Shown one piece after another: positions 2,629-59,392 of a DNA stretch of 64,000 bases. Source of the DNA: Vagococcus xieshaowenii. GTDB lineage: Bacteria; Bacillota; Bacilli; Lactobacillales; Vagococcaceae. The notes below the pieces were generated by a model that saw only the letters and a list, made by a program, of their open reading frames with translations, had not been told where the DNA came from and made no database searches. The DNA lies in assembly GCF_004792515.1 (NCBI RefSeq), contig NZ_CP038865.1:1830001-1894000 (forward strand), read 5' to 3'. The translations under genes and the position numbers were made by a program. Positions within the stretch are counted from its first letter, which is position 1; each line of letters opens with the position of its first letter.

Positions 2629-4650
2629 ATGCAACATTCAAAAAAAGTTACAATAGCTAGTTTACTTGTTACTATGGGAGTTGTTTACGGTGATATCGGA
2701 ACAAGTCCATTATATGTAATGAAAGCAATATTAGCAGGAAACGGTGGCTTGGGGAGTATCAATGAAGAATTCATCATTGGTTCAATTTCTTTAGTGATCT
2801 GGACTGTCACCTTAATGACTACTGTCAAGTATGTCCTAATAGCTTTACGTGCAGACAACCATGGTGAAGGTGGTATCTTTTCTCTATATACTTTAGTTCG
2901 AAAAGTGTCCCCTTATTTAATTTTTCCTGCATTAATTGGAGGCGCTACTCTTTTAGCTGATGGCATCTTAACACCTGCTGTTACTATTACAACCGCTGTA
3001 GAAGGTCTCCGAGGATTACCGTTTTTTTATGATCGATTTGGTAATAACCAAGAAATCATCGTCATTATTACATTAACCATTATTCTGCTGTTATTTACCA
3101 TTCAACGTTTTGGTACTGAAAAAGTTGGGAAAACATTTGGGCCGATAATGTTTTGTTGGTTTACATTTCTTGGCGCGATGGGCTTATACAATTTATCTGG
3201 CGAGTGGCACATATTAAAGGCACTTAACCCCTATTACGCATTTGAATTGCTAGTAAGTCCTGCCAATAAAGCTGGTATTTTAATTCTTGGAAGTGTCTTT
3301 CTTGCCACAACTGGGGCTGAAGCCTTATATGCAGATATGGGACACGTTGGGCGTAATAATATTTATGCTAGTTGGCCATATATCAAACTTTGCTTACTAT
3401 TAAATTACTTTGGACAAGGTGCTTGGTTAATGGAAGCTATGAACGATGCTACTTATTTAGAAATCGAAGACTTAAACCCTTTCTTCAGTATGATTCCTAA
3501 TGAGTTGTCACTTATTTCCGTTGCATTCGCAACCTTAGCTGCCATCATTGCTTCGCAATCATTAATTTCAGGTTCATTCACCTTAGTTTCTGAAGCAATC
3601 AAATTAAAACTATTTCCTAAGCTAAAAATCATCTATCCTAGTAATCAAAAAGGACAAATGTACATACCTGTTATTAATTGGTTATTGTGCTTGTTATGTA
3701 TGCTCATTGTGTTTAGTTTCAAAACATCCCAACATCTAGAGTCAGCTTATGGACTATCGATTACTATTACGATGTTAATGACAGCTATTTTATTATGGGT
3801 CTATCTATTAAAACAAAATATACCGGCAATTATTGCGCATAGTTTCTTACTCTTTTTCTCTGTACTTCAAAGTGTCTTTTTCTATTCAAACATCGCGAAA
3901 TTCATGCACGGTGGTTATGTTGCAATTTTGATTGCATTTGTATTATTCATTATCATGTTAACTTGGCACTTAAGTAATAAGATAAAAGAAAAAGTAGCTA
4001 AAAAAGTCCCTCTTGCAAATTATGTAGAACAATTAGAAAAATTATCTAACTCTGAGGATATCCCTTTATATCAAACCAACGTCGTTTACCTAACTGATGA
4101 TTTGTCTGAGCAACTGGTTGATCTTAAGATTCTTTACTCTATCTTGGATAAAAAACCTAAACGTGCTCAAGTATATTGGTTTGTTAATCTTTACGTTACG
4201 GATGAACCTTACACAAAAGAATACTATGTTGAGACTTTCAACAGCAAACACGTCGTAAGTATTCAATTACGTTTAGGTTTTAGAATGAGTCAAAAAGTGA
4301 ATGTGTATATGCGTCAAATCGTACAAGAAATGATGGCTCAAGGCTTGATTGATACGCAAGAACAAGAGTTTTCGATTGAGCCGGGCAGATCCGTTGGTGA
4401 CTTCTGTTTCGTTCTAATTAATGATGGTCTCTATAAAGGAACCACCGGCCTAAGCAATATTGAAAAATTGACTTATCAACTAAAATTAGCAATAAAAGCC
4501 GTCACCACTTCAACTGAAAACTGGTTTGGTTTACAGTATAGTGATGTCGTGAAAGAAAGTGTGCCGCTTGTTATAGACACGCGTGAATACCCTGAAAAAT
4601 ACCACTTAACCATGAAGCGCACACACAAATTTAGTTCTGAAGAATTATAA
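2629..4650 (+). CDS. kup: KUP/HAK/KT potassium uptake protein (copy 1)
   Basis: The product (673 aa) is a member of the KUP (HAK/KT) family, which imports K+ with protons across the cytoplasmic membrane. The N-terminus has the family signature GVVYGDIGTSPLYVMKA around residues 18-35, then about 12 hydrophobic segments to residue ~450 and a hydrophilic cytosolic tail. A strong AAAAAGGAG site precedes the ATG. It is closely similar along its whole length to kup2 at 13832-15853, so the window carries two paralogs. In lactic acid bacteria KupA/KupB are known to be controlled by c-di-AMP at the protein level; nothing in the DNA here shows that directly. Transcription ends at the hairpin just after the stop codon. 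Confidence 0.95.
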   Translation: MQHSKKVTIASLLVTMGVVYGDIGTSPLYVMKAILAGNGGLGSINEEFIIGSISLVIWTVTLMTTVKYVLIALRADNHGEGGIFSLYTLVRKVSPYLIFPALIGGATLLADGILTPAVTITTAVEGLRGLPFFYDRFGNNQEIIVIITLTIILLLFTIQRFGTEKVGKTFGPIMFCWFTFLGAMGLYNLSGEWHILKALNPYYAFELLVSPANKAGILILGSVFLATTGAEALYADMGHVGRNNIYASWPYIKLCLLLNYFGQGAWLMEAMNDATYLEIEDLNPFFSMIPNELSLISVAFATLAAIIASQSLISGSFTLVSEAIKLKLFPKLKIIYPSNQKGQMYIPVINWLLCLLCMLIVFSFKTSQHLESAYGLSITITMLMTAILLWVYLLKQNIPAIIAHSFLLFFSVLQSVFFYSNIAKFMHGGYVAILIAFVLFIIMLTWHLSNKIKEKVAKKVPLANYVEQLEKLSNSEDIPLYQTNVVYLTDDLSEQLVDLKILYSILDKKPKRAQVYWFVNLYVTDEPYTKEYYVETFNSKHVVSIQLRLGFRMSQKVNVYMRQIVQEMMAQGLIDTQEQEFSIEPGRSVGDFCFVLINDGLYKGTTGLSNIEKLTYQLKLAIKAVTTSTENWFGLQYSDVVKESVPLVIDTREYPEKYHLTMKRTHKFSSEEL

Positions 4651-13473: not shown

Positions 13474-13641
13474 CGTGCCATCTCCTTTATGTAAATATAC
13501 CCTAATTGTAGCATGTACCACCTAAAAACAACTATAAAAAGAGGGTTTATTTAATATTTATTAACCGTTTGATGATTGGGGAGATATCAGTCTTTTTAAC
13601 TATTGTCATTGTTTTTTATAAATTATTTTTTCATTAACCCC

Positions 13642-13669
13642 TTGTTTATTATTTATTAACATGTATAAT
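13642..13669 (+). promoter_or_regulatory. kup2 promoter
   Basis: TTGTTT (13642-13647), a 16-bp spacer and TATAAT (13664-13669) lie 163 bp before the kup2 start, leaving room for a structured leader of about 125 nt plus terminator. Confidence 0.75.
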
Positions 13670-13680
13670 CGTTAATATAT

Positions 13681-13810
13681 TTAGGGGAGTAGCAACATAG
13701 TATATTTATGGTTTTAAATCAACTATCACGTCTAACAGACTGGTTTAAAGCGTAATTTGCAAGACCTAACCGAACACAAGTTATTTGTGTTGGTTAGGTC
13801 TTTTTATTTT
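13681..13810 (+). promoter_or_regulatory. yybP-ykoY-like (Mn2+-type) riboswitch with terminator platform before kup2
   Basis: The leader contains the two hallmark internal-loop blocks of yybP-ykoY RNAs: GGGGAGTAGC (13684-13693) and GCAAGACC (13759-13766). TTAGG (13681-13685) can pair with CCTAA (13765-13769) as P1. Inside, an 8-bp helix (13713-13720 with 13742-13749) encloses a GTCT/AGAC hairpin (13730-13740), and a short hairpin follows the first block. The P1 3' strand is also the 5' arm of a strong terminator (13762-13801, 18-bp stem with 4-nt loop, then a T-rich tract). The two folds are exclusive, so ligand binding should allow read-through into kup2. Class assignment is by recognition of the motifs and fold, not by a covariance search. 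Confidence 0.7.
13762..13810 (+). terminator. conditional intrinsic terminator in the kup2 leader
   Basis: AGACCTAACC-GAACACAA, loop GTTA, then the reverse complement and TTTTTATTTT lie only 22 bp before the kup2 start codon. A terminator located between promoter and gene indicates attenuation. Confidence 0.85.
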
Positions 13811-13831
13811 AGAAAGGAGATTAAGACAATC

Positions 13832-15853
13832 ATGCATCAATCAAAAAAAATCACCCTCGCAAGTTTATTGGTAGCGATGGGCGTTGTATACGGAGATATC
13901 GGAACAAGTCCACTATACGTCATGAAAGCTATTGTGAGCGGTAACGGAGGACTAGGGAGTATCAATGAAGAATTTGTCGTTGGGGCGATTTCGTTAGTGA
14001 TCTGGACTGTCACCTTAATGACGACTGTTAAATATGTTCTCATCGCATTACGAGCTGATAATCATGGTGAAGGAGGAATTTTTTCACTCTATACATTAGT
14101 CCGAAAGGTAGTGCCTATTCTAATCTTCCCCGCTTTAATCGGAGGAGCCGCACTTTTAGCTGATGGTGTCTTAACACCTGCTGTAACGATAACAACAGCA
14201 GTTGAAGGTTTACGAGGAATCCCGTTATTCTATCAGCATTTTGGTGATAATCAACATATTATCGTCCTACTGGCTATCGGAATCATCACCTTATTGTTCA
14301 TGATCCAACGTTTTGGTACCGAAAAAGTGGGAAAAGCCTTTGGTCCTGTCATGTTTGGCTGGTTTACATTCTTAGGTGCGGTAGGATTGTATAATTTACT
14401 GGGAGATTTTTCTATCTTACGTGCCCTAAATCCTTACTATGCAGTAGAATTACTTTTTAGCCCTGCAAATAAAATTGGCATTCTTATTTTAGGTAGTGTC
14501 TTTCTAGCAACAACCGGTGCCGAAGCTCTGTACGCTGATATGGGACATGTTGGTAAAAATAATATTTTAGCGAGCTGGCCTTATATTAAATTATGTTTGA
14601 TCTTGAATTATTTAGGACAAGGGGCTTGGTTGATCACTCATCTAAATAATGAGGTATATATGAATCAAACAGACTTAAACCCATTTTTTAGCATGATGCC
14701 AAAAGAATTATCCTTAGTAGCCGTAATTTTCGCAACTTTAGCGGCAATTATCGCTTCTCAATCATTAATTTCTGGCTCCTTCACTCTAGTTGCCGAAGCC
14801 ATGAAATTAAAATTATTCCCTAAATTGAGAATTGTTTATCCTACCACTCATAAAGGACAAATGTATATTCCTGTGATCAATTCACTCCTATGGCTGTTAT
14901 GTATCACGATTGTTTTTAAATTCAAAACATCTCATCGCTTAGAAGCAGCCTATGGATTAGCCATTACTATTACGATGCTAATGACGACTATTTTGTTATG
15001 GGTCTATTTATTAAAACATAAGACTCCTAAAATCTTGTCCTATACGTTCCTTATATTCTTTAGCTTGCTAGAAGGCGTCTTCTTCTACTCAAGTGCGGCG
15101 AAGTTTTTACAAGGTGGCTATGTCGCTATTTTGATCGCGGTTATTTTATTTATTATTATGCTAAGTTGGCATTTGAGCAATCAAATCAAAGAAAAAGTGG
15201 CAAAAAAAGTGCCGCTAAAAGATTATGTCTCACAATTAGAAAAACTAGCAAACGATACGGATATGCCCTTTTACCAAACGAATGTGGTTTATTTAACCGA
15301 TGACTTATCTGAACAAATGATTGATCGAAAAATCATTTATTCTATCTTAGACAAAAAACCAAAACGGGCCCAAGTCTACTGGTTTGTTAATGTATTTGTC
15401 ACCGATGACCCTTATACCAAAGAATACTTGGTTGAAACCTTCCATAGTCAACATGTCGTCAGCGTACAGTTGCGTTTAGGGTTCAGAATGAATCAAAACG
15501 TGAACGTTTATATGCGTCAAATTGTCAAAGAGATGATGGACGAACACACTATTGAAAAACAAACACAAGAATATTCTATCCAACCTGGACGTAGCGTTGG
15601 GGACTTCTGTTTTGTCCTAATCGATGATGGGTTATACAAAGGAACTACCGGATTAACCTCTTTTGAAAAAATTGTTTATCAAATTAAACTAGCCATTAAA
15701 ACCGTGACAACCTCAACTGAAAATTGGTTTGGATTACAATATAGTGAAGTCGTTAAAGAAAGTGTCCCACTAGTTATTGATAAACGTGGACCTTCTGAAG
15801 AAGAAAAATTAGTATTGAAGAAAGACCAGGTGTTTAGTTCGGAAGAAGTTTAG
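13832..15853 (+). CDS. kup: KUP/HAK/KT potassium uptake protein (copy 2)
   Basis: The product (673 aa from the chosen start) is a full-length KUP transporter, with GVVYGDIGTSPLYVMKA near residue 20, about 12 membrane segments and a C-terminal cytosolic domain ending FSSEEV. The start at 13832 (MHQSKK) has the site AAAGGAG; the open frame upstream lies inside the leader terminator and is not coding. It is strongly similar to kup1. Unlike kup1 it sits behind a complete riboswitch-type leader, so the two paralogs are likely used under different conditions. It could transport another monovalent cation, but the family function is K+ uptake. Confidence 0.94.
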   Translation: MHQSKKITLASLLVAMGVVYGDIGTSPLYVMKAIVSGNGGLGSINEEFVVGAISLVIWTVTLMTTVKYVLIALRADNHGEGGIFSLYTLVRKVVPILIFPALIGGAALLADGVLTPAVTITTAVEGLRGIPLFYQHFGDNQHIIVLLAIGIITLLFMIQRFGTEKVGKAFGPVMFGWFTFLGAVGLYNLLGDFSILRALNPYYAVELLFSPANKIGILILGSVFLATTGAEALYADMGHVGKNNILASWPYIKLCLILNYLGQGAWLITHLNNEVYMNQTDLNPFFSMMPKELSLVAVIFATLAAIIASQSLISGSFTLVAEAMKLKLFPKLRIVYPTTHKGQMYIPVINSLLWLLCITIVFKFKTSHRLEAAYGLAITITMLMTTILLWVYLLKHKTPKILSYTFLIFFSLLEGVFFYSSAAKFLQGGYVAILIAVILFIIMLSWHLSNQIKEKVAKKVPLKDYVSQLEKLANDTDMPFYQTNVVYLTDDLSEQMIDRKIIYSILDKKPKRAQVYWFVNVFVTDDPYTKEYLVETFHSQHVVSVQLRLGFRMNQNVNVYMRQIVKEMMDEHTIEKQTQEYSIQPGRSVGDFCFVLIDDGLYKGTTGLTSFEKIVYQIKLAIKTVTTSTENWFGLQYSEVVKESVPLVIDKRGPSEEEKLVLKKDQVFSSEEV

Positions 15854-59234: not shown

Positions 59235-59263
59235 TTGAAAGTCTTATAAAATCGTTGTATGAT
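59235..59263 (+). promoter_or_regulatory. promoter of the antitoxin RNA
   Basis: TTGAAA (59235-59240), a 17-bp spacer and TATGAT (59258-59263) on the plus strand, pointing to the toxin gene 3' end. Confidence 0.65.
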
Positions 59264-59269
59264 AGATAT

Positions 59270-59392
59270 GAAAAGAGAGATATGCGTCAACATATCTCCC
59301 TATGTAGAACCGTTAAAAAGACGGTGACTGTAGTTAAATTATTTTAAGCCATCTAACTCTCTGTCAAAGTGTTTAGATGGCTATTTTTTGTT
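59270..59392 (+). ncRNA. antisense antitoxin RNA of the type I toxin module
   Basis: From the promoter at 59235-59263, a transcript of about 120 nt would have a hairpin GAGATATG/CATATCTC (near 59276-59298), an ACCGT/ACGGT hairpin (near 59309-59326) and end at the terminator AGCCATCTAA...TTAGATGGCT plus ATTTTTTG (59348-59390). It overlaps the 3' end of the toxin message on the other strand, the standard arrangement of par/fst and txpA/ratA-like systems. Confidence 0.65.
59347..59392. terminator. bidirectional terminator of the toxin-antitoxin pair
   Basis: AAGCCATCTAA and TTAGATGGCTA form the stem; a T6 run follows on the plus strand and a T/A-rich tail (TAAAATAATTT) on the minus. Confidence 0.75.

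Follow-up and report, generated by a model that had tools for sequence, protein, structure and literature searches.

Within a 64,000-nt window of the Vagococcus xieshaowenii genome, we found that the gene kup2 is preceded by a conserved structured leader. This leader is likely a yybP-ykoY riboswitch that responds to Mn2+, forms a distinct subtype linked to kup and turns on a K+ importer of the KUP family. At the level of sequence, the comparative evidence is decisive and confirms that the leader observation is real; it also upholds the identity proposed in the initial annotation, a yybP-ykoY-like riboswitch (by lowest Rfam E-value, covariation and conservation across genera), as well as the linkage to kup, which that annotation had called unexpected and which is conserved across genera. 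The kup2 gene (13832–15853, + strand, ATG at 13832) encodes a 673-aa protein with a GDIGTSPLY motif and a Pfam K_trans domain (PF02705, E 1.1e-148), and by domain it is predicted to be a KUP-family potassium importer. The NCBIfam model TIGR00794 (kup) gave 381.2 bits, below its equivalog cut-off of 539.6, which leaves the finer name kup unsecured.

The aptamer, which belongs to the yybP-ykoY family and the kup subtype, spans 13680–13771 on the + strand. Reading downstream, TTAGGGGAGTAGC starts at 13681, TCAAC at 13719, TGGTTTAAA at 13741 and GCAAGACC at 13759, so that after TTAGGGGAGTAGC come a small hairpin (P2), the P3 arm, which is rich in A/T (TCAAC at 13719, TGG at 13741), and GCAAGACCTAA at 13759–13769, the latter comprising the GC pairing beside L1, the L1 3' strand AAGA and the P1 3' strand CCTAA. 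The P1 switch helix pairs TTAGG (13681–13685) with CCTAA (13765–13769) by sequence and folding, as had been proposed, and in two leader alignments this helix (helix 1) had 96.2 and 97.7% of cells paired, with both-sided changes present. The 5' strand of L1, the metal-site loop, is GGAGTA (13686–13691), part of the GGGGAGTAGC block found in 57/60 kup leaders. As a whole, L1 of the kup2 leader reads GGGGAGUAGC / GCAAGACC, blocks also carried by the Lactococcus lactis yoaB RNA. The combination characteristic of the family is present in the kup2 leader: L1 GGGGAGUA, a 3' AGA strand and the metal-contact adenosine of L3. Motif alignment places this adenosine at 13721, within UC-A-AC at 13719–13723 (L3 reads UCAAC), as the counterpart of A41 in L. 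lactis and A48 in Xanthomonas oryzae, which contact Mn2+ through N7. The P3/L3 arm (13713–13749) is formed by TTTAAATCA (13713–13721) pairing with TGGTTTAAA (13741–13749), as indicated by folding and by covariation of helix 4. This arm is the nested helix described earlier as 8 bp; its predicted length is instead 9 pairs, of which the inner UCA/UGG, nearly invariant among relatives, probably represent L3 contacts rather than ordinary pairs. The aptamer by itself has an ordinary folding energy (z −1.3 to −1.5), and the full leader folds at z −5.8.

To place the leader among known RNAs, we searched it against 4227 Rfam families, and yybP-ykoY (RF00080) gave the lowest E-value of the seven matches listed (18.5 bits, E 0.0022). 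In a genome-wide search the kup2 leader scored E 0.004, second to a 30.3-bit match before a P-type ATPase gene. The Rfam match anticipated by the initial annotation is thus significant by E-value, while its score lies under the gathering threshold of 45 bits, as does that of the same-genome ATPase leader. Across 29 genomes of the window's family, no RF00080 match exceeded the cut-off, ATPase leaders included, so the cut-off cannot separate members from non-members in this family. Used unaided on the same 29 genomes, RF00080 gave 21 matches at E ≤ 1, of which 8 precede kup, another 8 precede P-type ATPases and 5 do neither; the matches at L019, L022, L027, L028 and L029 were judged from their surroundings to be chance. 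The other Rfam names at the kup2 leader, among them mir-7445 and STnc370, and those at some relatives (SdsR_RyeB, SraC_RyeA, SSRC10) all fell below their cut-offs, and we interpret these as hairpins or terminators that resemble the named families.

We then built a covariance model, R1, from 13 leaders (7 before kup, 6 before ATPase genes), the kup2 leader included; the kup2 aptamer scores 57.9 bits against R1, of whose training set it is itself part. The 13 aligned leaders share one common minimum-free-energy topology (13/13), a P1 / L1 / P2 / P3-L3 junction. Pairing holds in 92.5% of alignment cells, both partners vary at 15 of 29 pairs, and the covariation score is 0.479 vs 0.223 for shuffled alignments. 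An alignment of the kup leaders alone had 10 pairs changed on both sides vs 5.3 after shuffling, a comparison that leans towards the model because the alignment was fitted to it. R1 matches 330/395 genomes of Lactobacillales, indicating that the RNA class is very common in the order.

To ask how often this RNA precedes kup, we turned to the Enterococcus family (105 genomes, 92 with Kup), taking the upstream 1 kb of the best-scoring 80 of 93 Kup places, with the 13 lowest left out. An R1 leader lay upstream of kup in 53/80 of these loci, none of which had been used in R1 training; since a genome of a few Mb holds ~1–4 matches, chance alone should give fewer than one in 80 kb. When RF00080 was applied to 20 of the 53 leaders, all fell below its cut-off and 3/20 reached E ≤ 0.1, so the case in the Enterococcus family rests on R1 and the motifs; in 4 other of those 20 leaders, SdsR_RyeB was the best listed Rfam match (30–36 bits, cut-off 38). 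In the window's family, the leader was found at 8/30 Kup loci, of which 7 are in the R1 training set and the eighth is a near-copy. Among named Kup loci, of which the best 80 were kept, 16/80 carried an R1 match, always on the kup strand and starting at most ~630 nt upstream, and the 750 kb around these loci held no R1 match elsewhere. The 16 comprise Vagococcus fessus, V. proximus, eleven Enterococcus, Lactococcus chungangensis, Clostridium sp. 12(A) and Lacrimispora algidixylanolytica. Occurrence outside Lactobacillales thus amounts to two loci, L088 (3785–3897) and L096 (3785–3898), both from Lacrimispora-type Clostridia, where the kup-linked leader is more divergent and L3 reads UCAUUAC and UCAAUAC. 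Together, the family, named-locus and Enterococcus-family comparisons rule out a chance resemblance of the kup2 leader to yybP-ykoY, and if kup is indeed under a Mn2+ switch, the Rfam cut-off would be leaving many yybP-ykoY members unannotated in these bacterial families.

The link between leader and kup is dispensable, since 27/80 Enterococcus-family and 22/30 window-family kup upstream regions lack an R1 match. Fourteen of the 27 leaderless Enterococcus-family loci come from a single genus, g33, and make up 14 of its 15 fetched loci. An Rfam scan of 20 of the 27 returned no family over its cut-off, giving no sign of an alternative RNA there. We also mapped leader presence onto a Kup tree of 42 rows (38 of the 80 named loci, the two Kup proteins of the window, and those of G003 and G002; the rest, including the leader-bearing L062 and L077, were left out for size or redundancy). 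The leader label required 7 changes vs 13 in shuffles, indicating a clustered distribution with several gains or losses.

A putative sigma-A promoter, recognized by eye, consists of a weak −35-like TTGTTT (13642–13647), a 16-nt spacer and an extended −10 element, TG-TATAAT (hexamer 13664–13669), and this −10 region can be aligned with its counterpart in the G003 orthologue; a consensus promoter scan of 13480–13850 listed no + strand site. A terminator scan of the same interval likewise listed none, yet folding clearly shows an intrinsic terminator hairpin at 13763–13800 with a T tract at 13801–13805. The hairpin begins just 5' of the P1 3' strand and includes that strand, its stem holding 11 of 16 tested nucleotides around it. 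Terminator and P1 pairings are thereby mutually exclusive, and the region 13765–13810 folds at −17.2 kcal/mol (z −5.2). Directly after the hairpin comes TTTTTATT; the hairpin ends 31 nt 5' of the kup ATG, and the kup2 ribosome binding site, AAAGGAG, lies at 13813–13819. A terminator switch using the P1 3' strand had been proposed for this leader, and we found that the strand shared by P1 and the terminator is not only present here but conserved across genera. In a set of 60 kup leaders (the 53 from the Enterococcus family plus the window's own, L007, L061, L062, L117, L088 and L096), 50 have a hairpin that takes at least 9 of the 16 tested nucleotides around the P1 3' strand, with a T run downstream of the hairpin, in some cases at a distance, while another 5 form this hairpin and lack the T run. 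In some leaders of the g25 group the T run is interrupted or absent. Six additional leaders from the training family all have a hairpin on the P1 3' strand. The remaining 5/60 (L176, L179, L183, L184 and L196, all of genus g18) lack a terminator; in these, the Shine-Dalgarno sequence AACUUAGGAGG includes a stretch perfectly complementary to the P1 3' strand, CCUAAGUU, with which it pairs on folding. Because the two platforms, terminator and Shine-Dalgarno mask, share one strand logic, ligand binding is predicted to turn kup on, and the retention of this logic on both suggests a working switch. This ON direction derives from the anatomy of the leader, and for the cell we infer it from there.

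To examine the ligand core, we compared motifs in a second set of 60 kup leaders (the 53 from the Enterococcus family and the 7 training kup leaders), which differs from the platform set. In published Mn2+ riboswitches, according to the available portion of PMC6754395, the invariant L3 adenosine contacting Mn2+ by N7 is A41 in L. lactis (UCA-A-U-U-C) and A48 in X. oryzae, and A10 of L1 docks onto helix P3.1. The aligned L3 UCAAC, including the Mn2+-contact adenosine, is present in 53/53 Enterococcus-family kup leaders, an aligned-column count that is better than a plain pattern count, which for a few rows picked up similar motifs lying upstream. The L1 A is likewise present in 53/53, and GGGGAGUAGC is exact in 57/60. 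The kup leaders nevertheless form a subtype: 59/60 have UAGC with GC, vs UAAC in 42/42 sampled ATPase leaders, a compensatory change that puts a G-C pair beside L1 where ATPase leaders have A-U, and the residue 3' of the metal adenosine is A in kup leaders and often C in ATPase leaders. At 41 of the 42 ATPase loci the gene was confirmed by its P-type motif; at the other, L225 (Lacticaseibacillus-like genome G233), the yybP-ykoY leader precedes a P-type ATPase frame from which a large internal stretch is deleted.

These comparisons bear on the ligand, for which the initial annotation had offered either Mn2+ or another ligand sensed by a variant. The kup-subtype change hits a base pair beside L1 and no named metal contact, which makes Mn2+ the preferred ligand, and judged from the leader sequences we infer that it is the physiological one. 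The other branch, the main rival, holds that these RNAs keep the yybP-ykoY fold and sense a ligand of K+ physiology (K+, c-di-AMP, Ca2+, Mg2+ or another metal). A K+ importer as target would suit such a variant, as would the systematic differences between kup and ATPase leaders (G-C for A-U beside L1, A after the metal adenosine) and the existence of a pneumococcal relative whose affinity for Ca2+ exceeds that for Mn2+, although Mn2+ activates its transcription more (secondary account in part of PMC9495176). We nonetheless consider this branch unlikely: L1 and the metal-contact adenosine are conserved, with metal-contact nucleotides unchanged wherever they could be compared, no match to the c-di-AMP family was listed at the leader or found in the window's genome, and the loop residue in question is not the same in the Mn2+ riboswitches of L. 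lactis and X. oryzae either (available text of PMC6754395).

Two further explanations accept the RNA and question its role. Should the Kup paralogue itself transport or help handle Mn2+ or another divalent cation, the riboswitch would control a metal transporter as usual, in line with the Ca2+/Mn2+-type P-type ATPases that are the other leader-bearing genes in 9 genomes. This we regard as very improbable, given that Pfam K_trans and the GDIGTSPLY motif mark the protein as a KUP, and that an importer switched on by the very metal it imports would create a runaway loop. The leader might instead be a leftover whose sensing is gone and whose only remaining effect is constant attenuation. The apparently decayed copy before the sister gene kup1 shows that loss seems to occur, but the conserved elements are intact in the kup2 leader, and the cross-species covariation, together with a g18 Shine-Dalgarno mask that keeps the switch, suggests ongoing selection; we give a relic hardly any weight.

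The reading we prefer, a Mn2+-responsive switch that turns on kup, would work as follows. Without ligand, the terminator hairpin would capture the P1 3' strand (CCUAA in GACCUAACC) and transcription would stop before kup; Mn2+ bound between L1 and L3 would let P1 form, preventing the terminator and allowing kup to be transcribed. In the g18 version, the P1 3' strand would mask the Shine-Dalgarno sequence in the absence of ligand, and ligand-induced formation of P1 would free kup. As for the physiological reason for Mn2+-driven K+ import, the most likely is that cells facing an excess of divalent metal need extra K+ import beside metal export, possibly as charge or turgor balance while metal is exported. 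This need may perhaps arise because Mn2+ alters turnover of c-di-AMP, which restrains Kup and whose enzymes are Mn2+-dependent. Extra K+ import could then compensate for the effect of those enzymes, since c-di-AMP binds Lactococcus Kup proteins (excerpts of PMC10243994).

Genomic context places kup with metal exporters, since all leaders found with R1 in 9 genomes precede either P-type ATPase genes (19/25, one of them internally deleted) or kup (6/25). The window's genome has three, before two ATPase genes and kup2. The two ATPase leaders, L004 (1081–1226; G000:C1:92580) and L229 (G000:C1:1510604), precede different P-type ATPase genes. L004 also matches SSRC10 (RF02617) at 44.9 bits, below the cut-off of 56, which suggests that SSRC10 and RF00080 overlap.

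The window itself offers a natural control, as it holds kup paralogues with an intact (kup2) and an apparently decayed (kup1) switch. The kup1 gene (2629–4644 as matched, + strand), 77.6% identical to kup2 and adjoining rRNA genes, has no working leader. An apparently decayed riboswitch relic lies before it at 2500–2587 on the + strand (R1 10.4 bits, E 0.025 in 401 nt with filters off); the R1 search with default filters did not find it. Aligned with the intact G003 leader region, promoter included, the kup1 upstream sequence scored 211.8 vs a maximum of 162.6 in 300 shuffles. kup1 is also the closer relative of the G003 kup (83.5% identity, vs 79.4% for kup2), with which it groups in the Kup tree (support 99/96). 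From sequence comparison, kup1 seems to have escaped the control that kup2 keeps, and the riboswitch at 2500–2644 is perhaps being lost after gene duplication.

Elsewhere in the window, the Rfam RatA antitoxin RNA (59260–59348, + strand) faces an Rfam 'rli28' match (59577–59394, − strand). A 27-aa frame with a GTG start (59464–59384) overlaps the rli28 stretch and matches Pfam Hol_Tox (E 4e-06), which makes rli28 here look like a type I toxin-antitoxin mRNA rather than a plain sRNA.

We also looked for the c-di-AMP riboswitch (ydaO, RF00379), which likewise occurs before kup and differs from the kup2 leader in RNA family and ligand. It was not listed at the kup2 leader up to E 10, nor found in the window's genome at E ≤ 0.001. 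Across 395 Lactobacillales genomes it was found in 2, and in none of the Enterococcus-family and Vagococcus-like bacteria searched; the available part of a review (PMC10243994) describes lactic acid bacteria as apparently without it. Outside Lactobacillales, 3/16 loci examined had a c-di-AMP riboswitch upstream of kup, in Desulfosporosinus (L089, 3676–3822), a water-buffalo gut Bacillota MAG (L104, 401–531) and Sporolactobacillus (L120, 3714–3860). Depending on the lineage, kup seems to have come under one or the other of two riboswitch classes that are unrelated.

Among known systems, the closest is the L. lactis yoaB Mn2+ riboswitch (RF00080, PDB 4Y1I), which, in the available portions of PMC6754395, PMC11087558 and PMC9190785, shares the L1/L3 metal core and the P1 switch helix with the kup leader and is also turned on by antitermination, with UCA-A in L3. 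Its target is a P-type ATPase, whereas that of the kup leader is a K+ importer, and the kup leaders tested, unlike the yoaB riboswitch, fall below the Rfam cut-off. The Mn2+/Ca2+ riboswitch before the P-type ATPase gene mgtA of Streptococcus pneumoniae belongs to the same class and has a three-way junction (secondary account in part of PMC9495176); its target, like that of SSRC10 (RF02617), differs from the kup leader's. The Na+ riboswitch (DUF1646 motif) is an ion riboswitch that can precede annotated potassium transporters, with kefB among the genes most often associated with it (available text of PMC9337991); it is of a different RNA class, and no match to it was listed at the kup2 leader. 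In the open full-text literature, we found no statement that a yybP-ykoY RNA controls kup, and an entry in a supplementary table is possible. In the accessible parts of PMC4342826, PMC3871023, PMC7380456 and PMC11649195, the only open full texts found to contain both yybP-ykoY and 'kup', the latter is just part of an author name. For E. faecalis V583, the available main text of a microarray paper on Mn2+ contains 0 occurrences of kup, which we take as weak counter-evidence because the same text names no riboswitch-linked P-type ATPase either. The RNA class is already known; the kup subtype, its breadth, the kup Shine-Dalgarno version and the K+ target appear to be new.

On balance, we favor a broader proposal, held with less confidence than the assignment of the kup2 leader itself: in the Enterococcus family and Vagococcus-like bacteria, the kup-subtype switch would let cellular Mn2+ activate K+ import directly, at the level of transcription (in one genus, of translation), a cross-ion circuit hidden by the Rfam cut-off in the tested loci. 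If true, the Mn2+ riboswitch regulon extends past metal exporters and TerC-like proteins, the latter being known targets. A Mn2+ switch on kup would then be a missing layer of gene control, joining two ion economies that are usually studied separately.
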